45,966 nt of DNA from positions 1-45,966 of the forward strand of contig JAMCSY010000012.1 in assembly GCA_023379125.1 (NCBI GenBank), given 5' to 3'. The notes under the pieces were generated by a model that did no database searches, had not been told where the DNA came from, and worked only from the letters and a program-made list of their open reading frames with translations. Made by a program: the position numbers and the translations under genes. How positions within the stretch are numbered: the first letter of the stretch is position 1; each line of letters opens with the position of its first letter. The DNA comes from Patescibacteria group bacterium. Its GTDB lineage: Bacteria > Patescibacteriota > Microgenomatia > Daviesbacterales > UBA10151. Of this stretch, positions 9,324 through 43,321 are shown in pieces.

Positions 9324-9887
9324 ATGAAGTTTAAAAAGTTAAGCATTGTTTTAGGAATAATTACCATTATCAGTATTGCGCAACTAGGCTTACTGGGGAC
9401 TGGTTTGAAAATGATGGTATTGGGTACCAGTAAGGCTGAACAGCCCACTGGTGCTATCTCTCATCAGCTCGGAGTGCCCAACAGAATACGTATTGATAAA
9501 GTGCAGGTTGACTTGCCTGTTGTGGCACAGCCTCTGAATAACGGTACTTGGGCTGTTGAAGATGGGGTGGCCAATTATGCTCAAGGCACAGGTGTCATTG
9601 GCTCGGAATATGGAAATGTGGGGATCTTTGCTCATGATCGAGTTAATGGTTTTCATACCATTAAGGATTTGGCGATGGGTGATCAGATTATTCTGTATGG
9701 TGATAACTTCCAAGCTATCTATCAGGTGGAAGCTAAATCGGTAATTACCCCACAAAACGTTGATGTTTTTGCTCCTACTGCAAGTGATGAGCTGACTTTA
9801 GTTACCTGTGATGGCCTGTTTTCGGAAAAAAGATATATGGTGAAGGCAAAATTAGCGGAGGTGCTCACTAATGGTGAAGTTGATTAA
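9324..9887 (+). CDS. Sortase (class D/E-like) within the polysaccharide operon
   Basis: 187 residues. One N-terminal membrane anchor (about 7-28), then the sortase beta-barrel (from IRIDKVQVDLPV, about 55). Catalytic triad: His104 in FAHD, Cys162 in TLVTC, Arg170 in SEKRYMV. It starts 3 nt after the previous stop and overlaps the deacetylase gene by 17 nt. None of the operon's products ends in an obvious LPxTG-type signal, so its substrate is elsewhere or atypical. Sorting of a polysaccharide-binding protein is a possibility. Confidence 0.87.
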   Translation: MKFKKLSIVLGIITIISIAQLGLLGTGLKMMVLGTSKAEQPTGAISHQLGVPNRIRIDKVQVDLPVVAQPLNNGTWAVEDGVANYAQGTGVIGSEYGNVGIFAHDRVNGFHTIKDLAMGDQIILYGDNFQAIYQVEAKSVITPQNVDVFAPTASDELTLVTCDGLFSEKRYMVKAKLAEVLTNGEVD

Positions 9888-12276
9888 AAAGCTGATATTA
9901 AATATATTTATAATTTTGCTGTTTGTGGCAGGTTTGTTGACTTTTGCCACACCAACTCAGGCAACTTTGTCTGATTATACGTCACCGCGCATTTCAATTA
10001 CTTTTGATGATAGCGTGGCTTCAACTTATCAATATGCTTTGCCAATACTGGCTGAGCGGAGTATGCCAGCCACGGTCTATACTATTACTGGAATGGTTGG
10101 TCAGGATGGTTATATGACATGGGATCAGATTTTGAGTTTGCAGAATGATTATAGCTGGGAGATTGGTTCTCATACAGTTAATCACATTGAGCTACCAACC
10201 GTGGACCCAACAACCATTGAGACAGAAATTGAACAATCAAAAGCAGATCTGCAAAGTCATGGGGTTAATGTAGTTTCTTTTGCCACGCCTTATGGAGCTT
10301 ATGACAATCAAACATTGGTAGATATCTTAAAAGCTTACGAATCGCAACGAGGCTTTTTTGATATTGGGATTAATCAGTTTCCTTATCATCCAGATATATT
10401 GCAAGTGGAGCAAGTGGACTCAAATACTAGCTTGACTCAGGTACAACAGTGGATTGACCAAGAAGCCACTAGTAGTGGCTGGTTAATTCTAGTTTTTCAT
10501 GAAGTTGAGCCTCAGCTCGATCCAAATTATGAGTATGTCACTACCACTTCTGATTTTACTCAGATTGCAGATATGATTAAAAATTCCGGTCTGCCGGTGG
10601 TAAAAATTGGTCCTAACTTGCAAATTAATCAAATAAACCTTTTACCTAACTATAGTTTTAACAATGGTATTTCTGATGGTTGGACAACAAATCATACAGA
10701 TTTAATTACTGTTGATAATAATGATAATGGTAGCTATCCGGATCCAACAGCTTCAATTCAAATGCAAGGGGCAAGCGTTTCTGCACATCTCTTCTCACCA
10801 ATGATTGTTGCAAGTAGTAGTGCCAACTATTTACTTTCTGCTTATGTCAATGCTAACGCTATGACTCAAGGTGAAATGGGTTTTTATATTGATGAATATG
10901 ATGCCAATAATAACTGGATTTCTGGTCAATGGTTAGGAGCGATTTTCCAAAATACGGTGACTTATTTTGAAAAAATCTTCCAGGTGACTTCTGATTTAGT
11001 GAAGAGTTTTGTGGTGCAAACATATATTTATCAAACTGCTTTGGGGACTGTTTATGTGGATAACTATGGTTTATATAATTTAGATGAAGCTACTCCTTCC
11101 GTTACCCCCACTCCGATTGAGACAATTACCCCGACACCCACTCTAGTAATCACTCCCTTCCCTACCATCACACCTACTCCAACGCCAATTAATTTAGTAT
11201 TAAATCCCAGCTTTGAAGCTACTACTGCTGGTTGGGCAGATAATTGGACCACAGATAGTAGTAACTTTACTATTGATACTAATTCTCAAGGTTTGGAAGG
11301 TACTAACTCTGCTCACTTAACTCCCAATACAGCTTATGCTCACCTATTTAGTGACAAAATAGCAGTGCAATTTGGTCAAACATACCACTGGAGTGAGTAT
11401 ATCAAGACATCAAGTAACTCGGCTGGAGAGTTTGGCTTTTATATTGATGAATATGATAGTAATGGTAATTGGATTTCAGGACAGTGGAAAAGTTGTATCA
11501 AAATTCCTTTAACTGGACAATTTGAACTTACCTACACTCCAACTAGTTCTTTGGTTAAGAGTGTTGGTTTGCAATACTATGCTACTCCAGGCAGTAGCTA
11601 TGACCTCTATTTAGACAATGTAGTTTTTAGCACTGATTTACCAGTTACTACACCAACCCCCACGCCAACTCCACTGGCTACCCCCACAGCTACACCTAGT
11701 GCTACTCCTACTCCAACTATCACTCTTACCCCCACGCCTTCACTGACACCAACTACTAGCCCGACACCAAGTCTGTCTCCTTCACCGAGTCCAACTCCCT
11801 TACCAACCCCTACCCCTGTGACTAATCTGGTGACTAATTTCAGTTTTGAAAATTTAACTGCAGGATGGGCTGACAATTGGACTAAGGATAGTGATAACTT
11901 TTCCATTAATACTAGTAGTATGGGTAATGACGGGGTAAATAGTCTTAATTTAACTCCCAATACTGTCTATTCACATGCCTTTACTAGTTTATTTAAGATT
12001 GATCCATCGCTGAGTTATATTTGGTCTCAATATGTGCAAGCTACTGCCACATCTTCTACTGGGGAGTTTGGTTTTTATATTGATGAATATGATGCGAGTA
12101 ATAACTGGATTTCTGGACAATGGAAAGGAGCTATTTTTGCCTCGTATTCTGGTCTTATCCAGTTTAACTATACACCTAGTAGCAGCAATGTAAGTCAGGT
12201 CAGACTGCAATATTATGCTGTACCCAATAGCACTTTTGATTTATATCTTGATTCAGTTGATCTCAGTCCAAAATAA
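9871..12276 (+). CDS. Secreted polysaccharide deacetylase (NodB) with three C-terminal beta-sandwich-like modules
   Basis: 801 residues. Signal peptide (1-31) then a NodB homology domain (about 40-245): ISITFDDS with the metal/base Asp pair (46-47), GSHTVNH with metal His101 and His105, SFATPYGAYD, and LVFHE. Three homologous modules follow at about 255-405, 439-600 and 651-801. Each contains GFYIDEYD-x-N-x-WISGQW and an N-x-SFE-x-x-x-x-GW opening, resembling carbohydrate-binding or discoidin-like jelly rolls. Two Thr-Pro linkers (about 408-437, 592-650) separate them. GGAGGTG lies upstream of the ATG, and it overlaps the sortase gene. Likely removes acetyl groups from the polymer made by the GT2, comparable to PgaB/IcaB. 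The linkers are low-complexity and repetitive in DNA. Confidence 0.88.
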   Translation: MVKLIKKLILNIFIILLFVAGLLTFATPTQATLSDYTSPRISITFDDSVASTYQYALPILAERSMPATVYTITGMVGQDGYMTWDQILSLQNDYSWEIGSHTVNHIELPTVDPTTIETEIEQSKADLQSHGVNVVSFATPYGAYDNQTLVDILKAYESQRGFFDIGINQFPYHPDILQVEQVDSNTSLTQVQQWIDQEATSSGWLILVFHEVEPQLDPNYEYVTTTSDFTQIADMIKNSGLPVVKIGPNLQINQINLLPNYSFNNGISDGWTTNHTDLITVDNNDNGSYPDPTASIQMQGASVSAHLFSPMIVASSSANYLLSAYVNANAMTQGEMGFYIDEYDANNNWISGQWLGAIFQNTVTYFEKIFQVTSDLVKSFVVQTYIYQTALGTVYVDNYGLYNLDEATPSVTPTPIETITPTPTLVITPFPTITPTPTPINLVLNPSFEATTAGWADNWTTDSSNFTIDTNSQGLEGTNSAHLTPNTAYAHLFSDKIAVQFGQTYHWSEYIKTSSNSAGEFGFYIDEYDSNGNWISGQWKSCIKIPLTGQFELTYTPTSSLVKSVGLQYYATPGSSYDLYLDNVVFSTDLPVTTPTPTPTPLATPTATPSATPTPTITLTPTPSLTPTTSPTPSLSPSPSPTPLPTPTPVTNLVTNFSFENLTAGWADNWTKDSDNFSINTSSMGNDGVNSLNLTPNTVYSHAFTSLFKIDPSLSYIWSQYVQATATSSTGEFGFYIDEYDASNNWISGQWKGAIFASYSGLIQFNYTPSSSNVSQVRLQYYAVPNSTFDLYLDSVDLSPK

Positions 12277-31454: not shown

Positions 31455-32114
31455 TTAGTTTTTTAACGTTGCCTCTGGAATGATTTGAGCATAGACTAAT
31501 AACCTTTGCCAGTCAGTCCCTATTGGTGTACAAGTCTGCACAATTAGCTGGATTTTACCACTATCTACAATTAAACTTGCAACCTGATTGGGCCAGACTG
31601 TTTTCTGGTCAATTACACGATAGGTATAATCTTTATTTGCTTGATGTATATGAATTAAATCTCCAGCCCGTAGCTGTCCTAGTCTTAAAAAAGCAGTATT
31701 ATAACTGGTAATTCGCCATGGCAGGTCAGAGGAATGTGCCAGTAAGTAGGTGGTACCACTTTGACCAGGTTGGTTAAAATCACGGGCTTCGATCACACCC
31801 TTTTGTAAAGAAGGTAAATAATCCTGAGGATCCCAAGGGTTAACATCCAAAACAAGTGGGGCAAAGGCTGATATTTTTGGAATCTCAATATAATCACCAG
31901 TTCTGATTGCAGAATGATAAAGCGTGCTTGGAAAATAATAGACTTTTACTAGTGGATAATAAACATAAACAAGCCCTAATAATCCTAGGATAATTAAAAT
32001 ATCAGCTAGGGTATTTTTAGAGGAAGAAGTTTTGATAGTTTTATTAAATAGCATTTTGATATATCGAAGAAGGTTTTCTGGACAGAGGATTTTGGGGTTA
32101 ATTAACGATGGCAT
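31455..32114 (-). CDS. Sortase dedicated to the adjacent repeat surface proteins
   Basis: 219 residues. Membrane anchor about 38-58 preceded by a basic stretch; catalytic domain with His127 in YLLAHSSD, Cys195 in LIVQTCTP and Arg204 in DWQRLLVYAQ. The start at 32114 overlaps the end of the 399-residue surface protein gene by 17 nt, so it is the last gene of that operon. The upstream protein carries LAATG followed by a hydrophobic stretch and a basic tail. Class E sortases prefer LAxTG, so this pair fits class E behaviour, although the enzyme's class cannot be settled by eye. Confidence 0.87.
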   Translation of the reverse strand: MPSLINPKILCPENLLRYIKMLFNKTIKTSSSKNTLADILIILGLLGLVYVYYPLVKVYYFPSTLYHSAIRTGDYIEIPKISAFAPLVLDVNPWDPQDYLPSLQKGVIEARDFNQPGQSGTTYLLAHSSDLPWRITSYNTAFLRLGQLRAGDLIHIHQANKDYTYRVIDQKTVWPNQVASLIVDSGKIQLIVQTCTPIGTDWQRLLVYAQIIPEATLKN

Positions 32115-33297
32115 AATTTGGATCCCGACCGGGGTGCATCCTTAGATACAATCCTAGCAAGAGTACGAGTAGACTAGCAGTATTAATAAATAGAGTAAAA
32201 TTATTTCCAGTAGCGGCTAAAACTTCACCTACAGATCCGGTCGAAGCAGCTAACACTTGTCCTGTGTTACCAGTAATTGAAGCTGGAGAAGTGCTGGGTG
32301 TTGGAGCAGACGTTGGATTAGAAGCTGGATCTATAGGACTTCCTCCCTGCGGACTATTACTACCTCCTGGGTCTCTAGACTTGGTTTGCTGGCTACAACA
32401 TTTTAAACTCACCTGGTTGGTATTTACTGACTGGTTTAAAACCTCAGTGCCAGTTGCAACATTTCCTGTTGTAATCTGTACGTTACCAGAGTTTCTCTCA
32501 GTATTGTTTTCTCCACTAATCCCTGAAGTCTGCTGATTATTAGAGATATTTGCTTGATTCTCAATATCAACTAAATTAGCTGCTTCTTTTTGCAGTTTTG
32601 CTTTGTTAAGTGAGCCTGCGCCATTTCCAGAAATTTCGATATCATCTAGACTACTGTTTGATTGTGGCAGATTTACCGAAGCGTGGTTGATACCTTGATT
32701 AACGGTTTTATTAGAAGTTTTAATATCCCCAGTTTTGATTGTTACATCACCAGTATTAGCAGATACCCCATTTTTTCCACTATTAGCATAAGCCTGTACA
32801 CTATTAGAAATTGTGGAGTCTGATTTTGCTACAACCTGACTGTCAGTTTGTGAACTAGCGTTAATGCTATTACTCGAGCTGCTGCCATTATTAGTGATTT
32901 GTAAACTTTGACCACTTTGATTACAACAATCGGAATTAACACTAGACGAATTACCGCTGTTTGTAGTCGATGTGTCTGTTTGCACACTTCCAGTGGTAAT
33001 ATTGGAATTTCCAGTACTACTGTCTATTGAGTTACTGCCGCTGCTAGAGCTTTGGTCAACATTGTTATTAGTCTGGCTAGAATTATTCTGACTAATAACT
33101 GTTTGCGAGGATTGCTCAGCACTTACTTGGTTAGTAGAGGAACTACCATTTCCACTGATTACCAAATCTTCAGCATAGGAGGGTGAAACATTAACTGCCA
33201 ACAAGCTTCCACAACAGATGATTAGCAATAGACTAAATTTTGAAGTTAATAAGTAGGATAATTTACTATAGCCTATTAACTTGATTATTTTTTTCAT
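32098..33297 (-). CDS. Sortase-anchored repeat surface protein with C-terminal LAATG signal
   Basis: 399 residues. Signal peptide (LLIICCGSLLAVNVSPSYA). Three tandem units of about 90 residues (about 43-125, 126-215, 216-305), each opening with an I-(S/T)-(G/N)-N-G core, containing a (N/T)-x-G-(D/N)-(V/S)-x-I-x-TG core and closing with hydrophobic spacing of a beta-solenoid. The first and third units end in paired Cys (DCCNQ; KCCSQ). A Pro/Ser/Thr linker is followed by LAATG (360-364), a hydrophobic segment (FINTASLLVLLLGLYL) and a basic tail (RMHPGR), a complete sorting signal. Expected to be covalently anchored by the next gene's sortase. Low-complexity Asn/Ser/Thr composition is unlike the neighbours. 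Confidence 0.82.
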   Translation of the reverse strand: MKKIIKLIGYSKLSYLLTSKFSLLLIICCGSLLAVNVSPSYAEDLVISGNGSSSTNQVSAEQSSQTVISQNNSSQTNNNVDQSSSSGSNSIDSSTGNSNITTGSVQTDTSTTNSGNSSSVNSDCCNQSGQSLQITNNGSSSSNSINASSQTDSQVVAKSDSTISNSVQAYANSGKNGVSANTGDVTIKTGDIKTSNKTVNQGINHASVNLPQSNSSLDDIEISGNGAGSLNKAKLQKEAANLVDIENQANISNNQQTSGISGENNTERNSGNVQITTGNVATGTEVLNQSVNTNQVSLKCCSQQTKSRDPGGSNSPQGGSPIDPASNPTSAPTPSTSPASITGNTGQVLAASTGSVGEVLAATGNNFTLFINTASLLVLLLGLYLRMHPGRDPNYAIVN

Positions 33298-33388
33298 TAA
33301 ACACTTAATCCTTTAGAATTCTAGATTCACCAGATATTAATCTGATAAACAGTTAGTAATAATCAAGTAAGAACTCAATTTATATAAC

Positions 33389-35626
33389 TTATTGTTTTCG
33401 AAGTAGTTTTATTTTCCTGAAGGTCAAAAAGCTTACTAGTAGTAGTGGTAATATGATAATCAAGAAGGCGAGATTAATCTTGATTGATTTACTTGCTGCA
33501 GTTTGGTCAGTTACGGCACTGGCTAAGCTGCTACTAGGATTTTCAATTTTTGCACCAGCCACCAAAGCGCTACTGTCTGCTGGTTTATAATACTCATAAA
33601 TTCCACCTCCCCTAGTCAGTAATGCTAAAGTTGTTTGAGTTGTGACTGTATTACTACTGCTGTTATTTGGAGTATTAGAACTTGAACTACTACTAGTTGA
33701 AGAGGAGTCGTTACTATTATTTGAGGAACTGGTATTATTTTGGTTTGGATCAGAAACAGCAAGTTGGCTACTACCGCTATCTTGTGGATTACTGTTATCT
33801 TCTTGTCCAGGTGTGACAAAGTTACCAACCCAAGTCCCAAAAACATTAACAATAGTGACCACAAGATGACTGTTTGAGGAAATATTGTTGTTGACAAAAT
33901 TGATTAAATTAGCGATCACCTTCGCATCACCAGTGGTAATGGTTGAATTGCCACCAGTATTTTTCGAAGCGATATTATTGCCAGTATTAGCATTTAACGT
34001 CAGATTATTAGTTAAAACAGCACTATTGTTTTGCGTGAGTGAGGTAGAGTTTTGACTACTTGATAAACTATTGTTTTGAGAATCCGTTCCATTACCCGAG
34101 TTTGACGCAGTGATAGTACCATTGTCTCCTACTGTCAAAGTAGTCCCGGCTGAACCAGCATAAGTTGAACCAGCGGGCGCTCCTAAAATTTGTCCAACCC
34201 ACTGACCAGCTTGATTGACAATGACCAGCCAAACATCTCCGCCATCGATATTATTATTGGCAATGTTTAGTGTTTGAGATTTTACTGTTGCTTGTCCAGT
34301 TTGTACTGACGAATCGCCGTTGGTGTTATAACTTGTCATGTTGTCACCGGTATTTGCAGCTAGGTTTAGGTTATTTTGAATAGTTGCATCGTTGTTTTGT
34401 GATGTATTATTGGTAGTTGTACTTTGTGTAACTGCCGTATTGGTGCTATTTGCGCCATTTGAGTCATTGCTTACATTAGTTGTGGCACTGCTTGCCAACG
34501 CTGTTTCTGGAAGAACAATGTTGCCTATTAGGGTCCCAAAAATGTTCACAATTCCCACTACCACGTTACCGGCGATGTTATTGTTCACAAACGATAAGGC
34601 ATTACCATCCACATTAGCATTGCCTGTTTGGATAGTAGAATCGCCATTAGTATTCAGACTTGCCTGATTGTTACCAGAATTAGCTCCAAGGCTTAAGTTA
34701 TTACCAGTAGTTGAGGTGTTTGATTGAAAGTTACTTGTATCGCTGGTTTGGGCTACTAAAGCACTGTTACTACTTCCACTGCCATTATTGGTATTGCTTG
34801 CTGAGGCAGAAGCTTGGCAACCAGAAATACAATTTTTATTAAAATCCAAAACCAAACTACCAGTTTGATCATTAGAAACGTTAAATTCAGCTACCTGAAC
34901 CCCACTTAAATTGGTATTAACCTGATTGATAATTGTTCCGGTCGTATTTGCAGTACCACTAACAATTGCTGAATCTCCCAAGTTACGTGATGCACTGTTA
35001 TTTCCAGTATTACTTTGTTGGTTTAAATTATTTAAAGTGTTGCTACTATTGGTTTGGGTATTACTAGTTGAATTTGTAGTCGTACTAGTTGAGCTATTTG
35101 TTGAATCACTACCATTACCACTGTTAGAAACAGTGGAGTCCACCCCAGCTGATGTATTGCCTGTTGAACCAGTTGTGGCCTGATTATTATTTAGTAAATT
35201 ATTTAGATTTGCGGAATTAGTTACATCGCCAGTCTGGACATTAGTGGTACCCGTTTGTCCATTAGCTGTTTGCCCAGTAACCGCTGGATCGGTGCTAGTT
35301 GTGCTGGTTGAAGTATCAGGTGAAGCAACAACAGTGGTATTTTTAGGTGCTTTAGTAGGAGTTGGCGTAAGTGTTGCTAAGGCTTCTTGGATAGTAGGTA
35401 CCTTGGGTTCGGTGGGTGCACTGGGGGCAGAAGGCTGATTAGGTGCAGAAGGAGTTTGGGGTACACTGGGAGCAGAAGGTGCAGTAGGCGCAGTGGGAAC
35501 AGTTGGCTCTGATGGAATACTAGGAGCAGTCGGAGCAGAAGGTATATCTTCAGCCATTACCGGTATAGCACGGTAAAAGCAAAAGATTGTAATTACCAAA
35601 ATTGTAAGTATTCGTTTTATTCTCAT
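33389..35626 (-). CDS. Large Asn/Ser/Thr-rich repeat surface protein with Pro-rich stalk and C-terminal TM
   Basis: 745 residues. Signal peptide (ILVITIFCFYRAIPVMA), a Pro stalk of repeated S/T-AP-S/T (about 28-75), then roughly four units of about 110 residues. Each has a SGNGSDSTN- or NTNNGSGSSN-like start, a core such as NTGNNIASKNTGGNSTITTG, and a hydrophobic strand pair such as IVNIFGTLIGNIVLP. One C-x3-C pair (CISGC). The C-terminus has a Pro-less linker, one membrane helix (INLAFLIIILPLLLVSFL) and a basic tail RKIKLLRKQ, but no LPxTG-like motif, so it is probably membrane-held. It lies between the two other repeat proteins; plausible function: a structural fibre or S-layer-like component. 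Confidence 0.78.
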   Translation of the reverse strand: MRIKRILTILVITIFCFYRAIPVMAEDIPSAPTAPSIPSEPTVPTAPTAPSAPSVPQTPSAPNQPSAPSAPTEPKVPTIQEALATLTPTPTKAPKNTTVVASPDTSTSTTSTDPAVTGQTANGQTGTTNVQTGDVTNSANLNNLLNNNQATTGSTGNTSAGVDSTVSNSGNGSDSTNSSTSTTTNSTSNTQTNSSNTLNNLNQQSNTGNNSASRNLGDSAIVSGTANTTGTIINQVNTNLSGVQVAEFNVSNDQTGSLVLDFNKNCISGCQASASASNTNNGSGSSNSALVAQTSDTSNFQSNTSTTGNNLSLGANSGNNQASLNTNGDSTIQTGNANVDGNALSFVNNNIAGNVVVGIVNIFGTLIGNIVLPETALASSATTNVSNDSNGANSTNTAVTQSTTTNNTSQNNDATIQNNLNLAANTGDNMTSYNTNGDSSVQTGQATVKSQTLNIANNNIDGGDVWLVIVNQAGQWVGQILGAPAGSTYAGSAGTTLTVGDNGTITASNSGNGTDSQNNSLSSSQNSTSLTQNNSAVLTNNLTLNANTGNNIASKNTGGNSTITTGDAKVIANLINFVNNNISSNSHLVVTIVNVFGTWVGNFVTPGQEDNSNPQDSGSSQLAVSDPNQNNTSSSNNSNDSSSTSSSSSSNTPNNSSSNTVTTQTTLALLTRGGGIYEYYKPADSSALVAGAKIENPSSSLASAVTDQTAASKSIKINLAFLIIILPLLLVSFLTFRKIKLLRKQ

Positions 35627-35646
35627 ATTTTTTTAGTTTATTTTTG

Positions 35647-35704
35647 TCTAGGTTTTTAGGGTGCCCTGTGAAGTGCACCAGGACGACCCTAACTTTACCT
35701 AAAA
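35647..35704 (-). promoter_or_regulatory. Intercistronic stem-loop between two surface-protein genes
   Basis: In the 81-nt gap the transcript can form CTAGG/CCTAG and TTAGGGT/ACCCTAA outer stems around GTG-CACTT-CAC with flanking G/C pairs. No U-run follows, so it is not a terminator. A stabilising or processing hairpin that sets the ratio of the two products is plausible. Confidence 0.5.
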
Positions 35705-35707
35705 GTC

Positions 35708-36919
35708 CTAGATTACTAACTGCCAAAGGTTGCCTAGGTCAAAACCTAGTTCAACCCCAGGGTTGAAACCTACCAGGTTCACATTGGCTTGGTTGTTCAA
35801 GGTTGTATCGCTAGTGTTATCACCAGTTGATAACCAGAACATTCCGCTGTCATTGGCAGTATTTTCACCCGCTGAGTTGTCACCAGTTTCGGTATTGGGC
35901 TTAACTGTATTATTTAATAAAGCTAAATTCCCCTTACCTTCTCCACCTTGGAAAATACCTGAGGTGTTACCTAACTTAGCGCTTATCCAATTCTTGGTAT
36001 CAGCACCATTGTTGGTAATAGAAGCCTCAGTATTAGTAAGGCAGCAATCGACATTGGCATAATTAAAATTAGCCATGTTATCGATATTCACTGTGGAGTC
36101 TGCAGCACCAGTATCGATCATCACATCACCACTGGTATTACCCCAAGCTTTATTATCACCAGAGCTGGCCTTAGCGTAGACCATATTGTTAAATACTGCA
36201 TCATTACTCTGCACAACACTGTTATCAGAATTTTGATAGATATTTATACCATTATGGCTATCAGCACCATTTCCAGAGATTGTGGCAGTTAGGGTTCCAC
36301 CACTTCCATCACCACTACCTGAACTCGAGCTTGCTATATTAGCATTAGCCTGGTTTTTAATAGTTGTTGAGGAAGAGGCGGGTCCAGTTGTGATTGAAAC
36401 ATCACCACCGGTGTTACTGCTGGCTTTATTGTCTCCAGTTTCTGCCTTTTGGCTTACTTGATTAGTTATTTGAGCATCATTGTTCTGGAAAACTGTATTG
36501 TTGGAAGATGTTCCAACATTGGCCTTATTATAGGTATCAGCTCCATTTCCACTAATGTCAACACTAGTATTAGTGCCACAGGAAGAACAGCTAGAGGCAT
36601 CTGCCTTATTCAAATTAGCTTGATTTGTTACGTCAACTGAGGTGGATGCACCGCCCGTGCTAACATCAACACTCCCGCCAGTATTCTCACTCGCTTTATT
36701 ATCACCACTGTTAGCATTAGCGCTGACATTGTTGGTGATCACAGCTGTGTTGTTTTGAACAACCGAAGAAGTATTGGTACTATTTACGCTACTTTGATTT
36801 ACTGAATCTGCTCCGTTGCCGGAAATGCTGATAGTATTATCAGCATAAGCTGGTACGACTAATGCAAAAGAGAGCATTGCACCAGTAGCAACAGAAGCTA
36901 CTACTTTTTGTAATATCAT
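35708..36919 (-). CDS. Secreted beta-solenoid-like repeat protein, probable major fibre subunit
   Basis: 403 residues. Signal peptide ending in VVPAYA, then four tandem units of about 85 residues starting at about 28, 118, 209 and 297. Each runs ISGNGAD-S-x-N, then Q-N-x-A-x-I-x-N-x-V, then TGDNKA-x-x-NTGG and I-x-TG, then NQAN-x-N, that is, about four coils of 20 residues. The Q/N-x-A-x-I/V-x-N ladder recalls curlin repeats and pentapeptide-like solenoids, though they are not homologous by eye. Cys pairs (CSSC, CC) end units 1 and 3. There is no anchor or sorting signal, so it must be secreted or attached to the other two proteins. GGGGGTGA sits 8 nt before the ATG, and a structured leader precedes it. 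Confidence 0.8.
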   Translation of the reverse strand: MILQKVVASVATGAMLSFALVVPAYADNTISISGNGADSVNQSSVNSTNTSSVVQNNTAVITNNVSANANSGDNKASENTGGSVDVSTGGASTSVDVTNQANLNKADASSCSSCGTNTSVDISGNGADTYNKANVGTSSNNTVFQNNDAQITNQVSQKAETGDNKASSNTGGDVSITTGPASSSTTIKNQANANIASSSSGSGDGSGGTLTATISGNGADSHNGINIYQNSDNSVVQSNDAVFNNMVYAKASSGDNKAWGNTSGDVMIDTGAADSTVNIDNMANFNYANVDCCLTNTEASITNNGADTKNWISAKLGNTSGIFQGGEGKGNLALLNNTVKPNTETGDNSAGENTANDSGMFWLSTGDNTSDTTLNNQANVNLVGFNPGVELGFDLGNLWQLVI

Positions 36920-37048
36920 TTAATTATTCACCCCCTTTCAGTTTTGTCTTCATTGCTGAAGCACTTCGACTTATCCTGCTTTTGACCATAAAATCAAAAG
37001 CAGAGACTAGTAAGCCATCAAAAAATGACTTAAAAATCTCTGCTTTTG
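36920..37048 (-). promoter_or_regulatory. Structured 5' leader of the surface-protein operon with alternative hairpins
   Basis: In transcript order, segment A (37048-37037), segment B (37006-36994) and segment C (36985-36976). B pairs with A over 12 perfect base pairs (CAAAAGCAGAGA with TCTCTGCTTTTG) or with C over 10 perfect base pairs (TCAAAAGCAG with CTGCTTTTGA, 8-nt loop). The two structures are mutually exclusive. A third hairpin CTTCA-GCAA-TGAAG (36948-36961) has a GNRA loop. The ribosome site GGGGGTGA follows at 36928-36935. Confidence 0.7.
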
Positions 37049-37284: not shown

Positions 37285-37397
37285 TTATGGAGTTCCCCGG
37301 CCTAAGGCCCGGGACATCTTCTCAGCTAAAGCTCTAAGCATCTTTCAAGTATTTCTTCTGCTATTATATTCGTGATTTCCCAGCTTTGGCTGATAAC
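37285..37397. repeat. Hairpin repeat copy C (degenerate)
   Basis: Starts TTATGGAG and contains CCCCGGCC-TAA-GGCCCGGG followed by ACATCTTCTCAGCTAAAGCT, aligning to copy B, then diverges; the end GGCTGATAAC again resembles copies A and B. It ends at the stop codon of the DUF4352 gene. Confidence 0.6.
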
Positions 37398-37981
37398 TAA
37401 AAGTTCAAATCGAGCAGACTCTTGTCACCATCGATCTCGCCTACTTGGATTTTGAAATGCTTAATGTTTTGATCAACAGGAAAACCAATCCGAGTTTGCT
37501 TAACAGAAATAGGTTGTACCTCCACTGGATCATTATGAATGTCTGGGGCAAACCACTCACTTGTATTGTCATCAAGTGCTAAACGTACGTAATTTCTGGT
37601 ATTAACAGTGACAGTTTTATCAGTGGTGTTTGATAACTTTAAATTTAAAATTAAGAAAAGTCTGCCTGAAACAGCTGTGGCCTTTTGTCCTTGTACCAAA
37701 ATATCTTTTCTCAATTCAGCATTTTGGATAGTATATTTAATATCCGTTGCTTCTGCCCCATTAGTACCTGGAATTGAAAAAGTAAAATCCTTATTTACAT
37801 CAGTAGTGGCAACTGGGTTACTTAAAGAGTTGTTACTAGTTTGACTAGCAAGTGGAGTGTTATTGTTGTTACTTGCAGCTGGTTTGTTAAAAAAAGATCT
37901 CCCAACAAAATATATAATCACGACTAAAACTATGATTGGTATAACTAGTAAACGCTTGTTTTTGATTCGTTGTTGTTCCAT
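37397..37981 (-). CDS. DUF4352-like extracytoplasmic protein
   Basis: 194 residues. Basic N-terminus, one membrane anchor (LLVIPIIVLVVIIYFVG), an Asn/Ser/Thr linker and a beta-sandwich domain with the telokin-like DUF4352 pattern: KYTIQNAELRKD, GRLFLILNLKLSNTTDKTVTVN, a polar strand, and ISVKQTRIGFPVDQNIKHFKIQVGE at the end. These domains are extracellular sensors or scaffold pieces; no ligand is known. A TATATA box ends 5 nt before the ATG. The stop lies at the edge of repeat copy C. Confidence 0.75.
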   Translation of the reverse strand: MEQQRIKNKRLLVIPIIVLVVIIYFVGRSFFNKPAASNNNNTPLASQTSNNSLSNPVATTDVNKDFTFSIPGTNGAEATDIKYTIQNAELRKDILVQGQKATAVSGRLFLILNLKLSNTTDKTVTVNTRNYVRLALDDNTSEWFAPDIHNDPVEVQPISVKQTRIGFPVDQNIKHFKIQVGEIDGDKSLLDLNF

Positions 37982-43031: not shown

Positions 43032-43114
43032 GCTGGCGTGGTGGAATGGTATACACGTTGGACTTAAAATCCAATGACCGAAAAGTCTTGTGGGTTCGAC
43101 TCCCACCGCCAGTA
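43032..43114 (+). tRNA. tRNA-Leu(UAA)
   Basis: Acceptor GCTGGCG pairs with CGCCAGT (first pair G-U), anticodon stem TTGGA/TCCAA with loop CTTAAAA gives anticodon UAA. A long variable arm typical of tRNA-Leu follows, and T arm GTGGG-TTCGACT-CCCAC. Discriminator A. CCA is not encoded. Confidence 0.92.
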
Positions 43115-43188
43115 CTTGGTTATGCTGTAATCCACCTTGTGTGATTACAAGTAACTAAATGACGGTATTGGAGAGAACTCTAGTTTAC

Positions 43189-43244
43189 GGTTCGACAATT
43201 TACGCGAAGCGAGAAATTGGTTATTCCTCCCACCGCCAGTACTT
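43189..43244 (+). pseudogene. Broken second copy of a tRNA 3' half
   Basis: GGTTCGAC (43189-43196) and CTCCCACCGCCAGTACTT (43227-43244) are identical to adjacent pieces of the tRNA-Leu 3' half (43093-43100 and 43100-43117). They are separated by a 30-nt insert with the hairpin CAATTT-A-CGC-GAA-GCG-AG-AAATTG (43196-43219). A degenerate tRNA or a duplicated attachment-like site. Confidence 0.6.
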
Positions 43245-43249
43245 AGCTA

Positions 43250-43321
43250 CGGGGATTGGCGCAGTGGTAGCGCGCTCGGTTTGGGACCGAGAGGCCGTGA
43301 GTTCAAATCTCACATCCCCGA
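43250..43321 (+). tRNA. tRNA-Pro(UGG)
   Basis: Acceptor CGGGGAT/ATCCCCG, anticodon stem CTCGG/CCGAG with loop TTTGGGA giving anticodon UGG, T arm GTGAG-TTCAAAT-CTCAC, discriminator A, CCA not encoded. D-stem GCGC/GCGC is intact. Confidence 0.93.

Follow-up and report, generated by a model that had tools for sequence, protein, structure and literature searches.

A candidate surface-assembly operon of Patescibacteria with complementary RNA motifs on both sides of its putative bulk subunit gene

Little is known of the cell coats of the candidate-phyla bacteria, which are tiny and mostly uncultured, or of the attachment of these bacteria to their hosts. The window analyzed here (the whole stretch of 45,966 nucleotides, contig JAMCSY010000012.1, from a genome of 0.97 Mb in 27 contigs) carries on its minus strand the consecutive genes for three secreted repeat proteins (A, B and C) and for a sortase. 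Do these proteins work together as one surface structure, and how might their relative amounts be set? A reading made from the sequence only had proposed an assembled surface structure of several proteins with a sortase of its own, with open reading frames of 403 aa (A), 745 aa (B), 399 aa (C) and 219 aa (sortase). The lengths and positions proved exact when the open reading frames of the window were checked, and the proposed system is supported by the scores of the sortase subfamily and by the kept gene order (see below). In fact, the conserved unit is larger than three genes and a sortase, as it also includes an upstream gene, here designated X, and two RNA elements. A search of the accessible literature found no description of this system, and the gene set with its two-motif layout of the A message was found in none of the databases searched. 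Judged by its relatives, the genome of the window belongs to Microgenomatia in the candidate phyla radiation, and the nearest named related locus (L005) belongs to Ca. Chisholmbacteria.

Repeat proteins with three different endings

The five genes are all encoded on the minus strand. The product of X (37397..37981) possesses an N-terminal transmembrane segment (TM) and an extracellular domain weakly similar to DUF4352 (PF11611). In the window this similarity stays below the cut-off (14.8 bits versus a gathering threshold of 25.9, E = 0.036), and 13 of the 23 members of the X family match PF11611 at E<=0.1, the best with E = 1.8e-6. Protein A (35708..36919), the putative bulk subunit, is secreted and consists of four repeats (starting at residues 32, 122, 214 and 301) without an anchor. 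Protein B (33389..35626) has a signal peptide followed by a Pro-rich segment, four repeats (starts at residues 168, 278, 387 and 509), each of them followed by a hydrophobic stretch (e.g., NNNIAGNVVVGIVNIFG), a Ser/Asn linker and a C-terminal TM (residues about 710-742). Protein C (32098..33297) contains three repeats (starts at residues 47, 134 and 222), a Pro-containing linker and a sorting signal of the LPxTG type. The sortase gene (31455..32114) shares 17 nt with the end of C, and its product shows only one hydrophobic segment, an N-terminal TM.

The repeats common to A, B and C are real: phmmer aligned A with B at 60.4 bits and A with C at 59.1 bits, whereas no match was reported for any of 2000 copies shuffled by composition or by window. 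The sequence-only reading had given the units a length of 85-110 residues; they measure ~87-92 residues in A and C and ~110-122 residues in B. The Q/N-x-A-x-I/V-x-N ladder described there reappears in the consensus of 19 A homologues as V-x-Q-x-N-x-A-x-I-x-N-x-V. The division into an unanchored A, a membrane-anchored B and a wall-anchored C is likewise found in the homologues. The Pro stalk that had been placed next to the membrane in B is a different matter, as the Pro-rich part directly follows the signal peptide and lies far from the TM.

No match above any cut-off was found for A, B or C in Pfam or NCBIfam, nor did Pfam give a consistent match for the A and B families. A sequence search of the PDB revealed no solved relative of A, viral contigs contained no relatives of A or B, and altogether no solved or named relative of these two proteins was found. 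With regard to the beta-solenoid or curli-like fold suggested by the sequence-only reading, AlphaFold2 produced models of low confidence both for the full-length A (7 alignment rows, pLDDT 38) and for a two-repeat unit (12 alignment rows, pLDDT 37, pTM 0.23); at this confidence, the secondary structure in both models is strand only. The combination of a free repeat subunit with a related membrane-held one and Gln/Asn ladders is, by analogy, reminiscent of curli (CsgA/CsgB). However, the repeats here are 87-122 residues long rather than about 22, and a TM anchor and a sortase take the place of the outer-membrane pore. No curlin repeat was among the Pfam hits at E<=1, either for the three proteins themselves or for the families of A and B.

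The conserved core and the linked sortase

The neighbourhoods of relatives yielded 54 loci that contain B. In all 35 loci with enough upstream sequence, B is preceded by X and A. Among 45 X-A-B loci with enough downstream sequence, a sortase follows in 33 (20 of the type linked to the window's locus, 13 of another type), while none is nearby in the other 12; the sortase therefore cannot be indispensable for the system as a whole. Judged by gene order, these comparisons show that X-A-B is the conserved core, to which C and a sortase are a frequent addition. The possibility that relatives carry these genes scattered and without a sortase was checked and is not the case, as the genes are kept together. 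Furthermore, a strong match to X is present in 10 of 380 genomes of the phylum, and all 10 also carry B (hypergeometric P = 5e-16). The B family occurs in 37 of these 380 genomes, reaching other classes and often with an A-like neighbour, and within the class, 72 of the 374 genomes (about a fifth) contain A-type matches.

The sortase belongs to PF04203 (E = 2.7e-17; 63.1 bits versus a gathering threshold of 26.6), and His127, Cys195 and Arg204 are invariant across 14 of its relatives. Some sortase is present in 94 of 95 relatives. The accessible part of a published work describes a sortase family as near-universal in Microgenomates and does not name the X-A-B locus (PMC6744442). The sortases of 12 relatives are conspicuous (42-49% identity, E<1e-42). 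A C-like protein adjoins 11 of these 12, most of them also with B-like proteins in view, and for the twelfth (L009/L028) the contig ends just after the sortase gene. Across the 380 genomes of the phylum, this linked subfamily scores 266-282 bits, as compared to at most 187 bits for any other sortase.

Which signal would this enzyme recognize? An LAATG pentapeptide can be read directly from the sequence of C (32206..32220), as had been proposed. It is atypical, though, since most relatives have LPATG, LPISG or LPVTG instead. In C and its relatives, the pentapeptide, a hydrophobic span and a basic C-terminal tail are all present. Of the 20 loci with the linked sortase, 17 have a signal that conforms to LPx[TS]G (the exceptions include LAATG, in the window only, and LAAAG in L030). 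In loci with the other sortase type (TLYTCSG...KRLIV), none of the nine readable C proteins conforms to it, and most of them end in a GL[SA]xTS-like sequence. Sortase type and C signal thus switch together (17/20 versus 0/9, P = 2e-5), which is the best evidence from these comparisons that the sortase probably acts on C. The co-switching and the LPx[TS]G signals of the relatives also remove the basis for the assignment to class E, which had been derived from the LAxTG form of the signal; LAATG was rejected as a class marker, being a local variant within an LPxTG-using family. No class cut-off of NCBIfam (160-165 bits) was reached: the scores were 55.5 bits for class C (cut-off 160), 37.6 bits for class D and 26.2 bits for class E (cut-off 160). 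Class E enzymes are marked by a tyrosine in the beta3/beta4 loop (Tyr229 of SrtE1; PMC5148588). In a sequence alignment (as opposed to a structural one), the residues directly preceding His127, where this loop is expected, show no conserved Tyr.

The pair of a sortase with invariant His/Cys/Arg and a neighbouring protein with LPxTG signal, hydrophobic stretch and basic tail resembles the known sortase-anchored LPxTG proteins, except that here only C carries the signal and the X-A-B core is without it. Several secreted proteins together with a dedicated sortase in one operon are also characteristic of pili built by class C sortases, and the best solved relatives of the sortase include class C enzymes. 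However, A and B lack sorting signals, and the sortase scores below the class C cut-off. The X-A-B system somewhat resembles curli or a tethered coat, belongs to neither according to the tests applied here, and appears to use a sortase in the C module only.

Two further observations concern sortases and their signals. At L036:8202-9446, the LPxTG tail of the C gene seems to have been lost, perhaps through a frameshift. In the window itself (9324-12276, plus strand), a second sortase gene (PF04203) overlaps by 17 nt with the gene for an 801-aa polysaccharide deacetylase protein carrying carbohydrate-binding domains. A glycosyltransferase gene adjoins, and this is another sortase-linked surface locus.

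RNA elements on both sides of gene A

The genes of the cluster differ strikingly in their ribosome-binding sites. Gene A is preceded by a strong Shine-Dalgarno sequence in 17 of 17 loci (mean -16.4 kcal/mol); in the window it is near-perfect (AAAGGGGGTGA, 36928..36938, minus strand, -16.5 kcal/mol). The corresponding means for the neighbours are -3.2 (B), -4.5 (X), -6.0 (C) and -5.9 kcal/mol (sortase), and most of these sites are not strong. For every gene, the start used was the best one among the first 60 codons, and as the rule was the same throughout, the comparison is even-handed. This asymmetry suggests that A may be made in excess over its neighbours.

The gap between A and B contains a conserved RNA hairpin (35654..35694, minus strand), which is stable in 16 of 17 loci (z -3.3 to -8.6) and is also present in the seventeenth (L029). 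A model (R2) made from six copies of this hairpin finds further copies outside that set, including the one in the window. Its sense matches occur in 11 of 95 whole genomes, once in each and always in the A-B gap. In an alignment of 12 copies, which was fitted to R2 and is hence biased toward pairing, 94.5% of cells are paired and 9 of 14 pairs have changes on both sides, while slid controls reached at most 46% paired. The covariation score was 0.519 versus 0.188 after shuffling, and none of 500 shuffles attained the observed value (note that such shuffles can be exceeded by related sequences alone, and that the slid controls matter too). Rfam 15 contains no family above gathering for the hairpin or for the A leader. 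A UUCG tetraloop was considered as the cause of the loop conservation and rejected, as the nucleotide that follows UUC is variable.

In nearly all cases, the loop of the hairpin reads GCACUUC (35670..35676 in the window), and the 5' leader of A carries its complement, GAAGUGC (36961..36967, both on the minus strand), the predicted partner of the loop. The leader motif is found ~40 to 110 nt before the start of A, usually just 5' of a small stem-loop, and is more accessible than its surroundings (0.52 versus 0.37). With 36 loci added, both motifs are present in 46 loci, neither in 6 and one alone in 3 (Fisher P = 6.5e-6). The same complementarity is seen in a motif-independent test, in which the strongest hairpin after A was chosen and its apical loop compared with the leader: the mean longest Watson-Crick run was 6.42, as compared to 4.49 +/- 0.12 for shuffled leaders, and runs of at least 7 occurred in 32 of 55 loci, with at most 5 in any shuffle set. 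In a table of 47 loci, curated by hand after the motif was known (the leader picks of L053, L058, L060 and L081 were corrected and L056 was added), 324 of 329 positions are paired, which is above all 20,000 permutations (P = 5e-5, related loci being treated as independent). The heptamer as such (GAAGTGC in DNA) is no commoner in the window than by chance (6 versus 5.2 expected), so the weight rests on placement and covariation.

As to covariation, L056, which had escaped the first motif pattern, combines UAAGUGU with ACACUUA and thus has two compensatory changes. A U-A pair replaces C-G in L150, L156 and L161, a G-U pair is present in L153, and G-C replaces A-U in L060. This amounts to perhaps four to six independent compensatory events. 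Exceptions are L005, with the 5' motif only, and L166, with the 3' loop only. The apparent compensatory pair in G069 (L032/L059) was not counted, as its contigs hold different copies of A. Taken as a whole, the sequence comparisons strongly support an RNA pairing between leader and loop.

What this pairing would do is a separate question. Differential expression by intercistronic hairpins is known from malE-malF and puf, and there, as here, the hairpin follows a gene that is apparently abundant and precedes genes that are scarcer. What sets the present hairpin apart is its conserved loop, the complement of which is a leader motif about 1.3 kb upstream. If they pair in cis, the two motifs would clasp both ends of the A message, and clasp and hairpin together may keep A mRNA abundant relative to the messages of B, C and the sortase. 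We tentatively propose that the A message is a closed loop, held by a 7-bp kissing pair between its leader and the loop of the hairpin just past its stop codon, ~1.3 kb apart, which sets the subunit excess in a new surface polymer system; this is a possibility to be taken seriously, although we stop short of calling it probable. The hairpin could instead be released as a small RNA, or be bound by a protein, and act in trans on the leaders of A. Its position would suit a processed 3' fragment, and identical complementarity and covariation would be expected; as the sequence fits a trans-acting RNA and a clasp alike, we regard the trans action as quite conceivable but somewhat doubtful.

Possible roles of the proteins and features nearby

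The locus is, in our opinion, somewhat more probably than otherwise a surface export/assembly operon of Patescibacteria, mainly of Microgenomatia, with A as the bulk protein, B as the base, C as the link to the wall, and a clasped A mRNA. In such an operon, A would be secreted in bulk and form a coat or fibre by the packing of its Asn/Gly-rich repeats. B, which is membrane-held and has the same repeat as A, may serve as a base or nucleator, C would tie the layer to the peptidoglycan after being joined to the wall by the sortase, and X may assist outside the membrane.

Alternatively, A could form a coat similar to an S-layer, i.e. a two-dimensional sheet and not a fibre, with B and C as its membrane and wall tethers. 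Genes for S-layer proteins often have strong ribosome sites and stabilized leaders. One protein apparently in large excess over two tethers would fit such a coat, and some bacteria of the phylum are reported to possess S-layers (PMC13293708). However, no SLH or other S-layer domain was detected in the Pfam and NCBIfam scans, and the A type is restricted to just about a fifth of the class, which makes this explanation unlikely.

Adhesins are common among surface proteins that are rich in repeats and carry sortase signals. That A, B and C are separate adhesins or host-contact proteins, which share a repeat and an operon without mutual assembly, would also suit the life on other cells that is presumed for most of these bacteria (accessible part of PMC6744442), but appears improbable given the fixed X-A-B order and its co-occurrence across many families, the need of an unanchored A for a holder if it acts at the surface, and the asymmetry of the ribosome sites, which fits a subunit stoichiometry better.

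About a fifth of the sampled Microgenomatia genomes possess a defined gene set (X, A and B, with C and sortase). Moreover, the covarying 5'-3' pairing around a single gene is a candidate long-range mRNA structure that may set the ratios of subunits within an operon. If true, the closed loop would represent a new type of RNA architecture that serves a single operon, and the protein product would be a new surface polymer system of the candidate phyla.

Several other features are located close to the cluster. A further conserved leader element, GCUGACCGCAAACGGAGGC, precedes A in 25 of 30 relatives (e.g., L131, L145, L151) and is absent from the genome of the window. It makes up the 5' arm of a hairpin that resembles a terminator and lies 160-200 nt ahead of A; the element is nearly single-copy per genome and has no match in Rfam. 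The same leader precedes a short A-like gene in G472. Short (~200 aa) A-like secreted proteins without an anchor, often ending in ...VTGxxNTLNP, are encoded convergently to the cluster in many genomes (L028, L035, L036, L053, L081, L082, L134, L146 and others). Between X and A, some loci (e.g., L053, L055, L082 and L162) contain a small open frame (YGSVEIYVQ...VTQITVRNIKKT), which is reminiscent of DUF2292 and is apparently missing in the window. Note also that a TPP riboswitch is located near the cluster at L053:15744-15853, and that the window carries two tRNA genes at 43032-43321 (plus strand).
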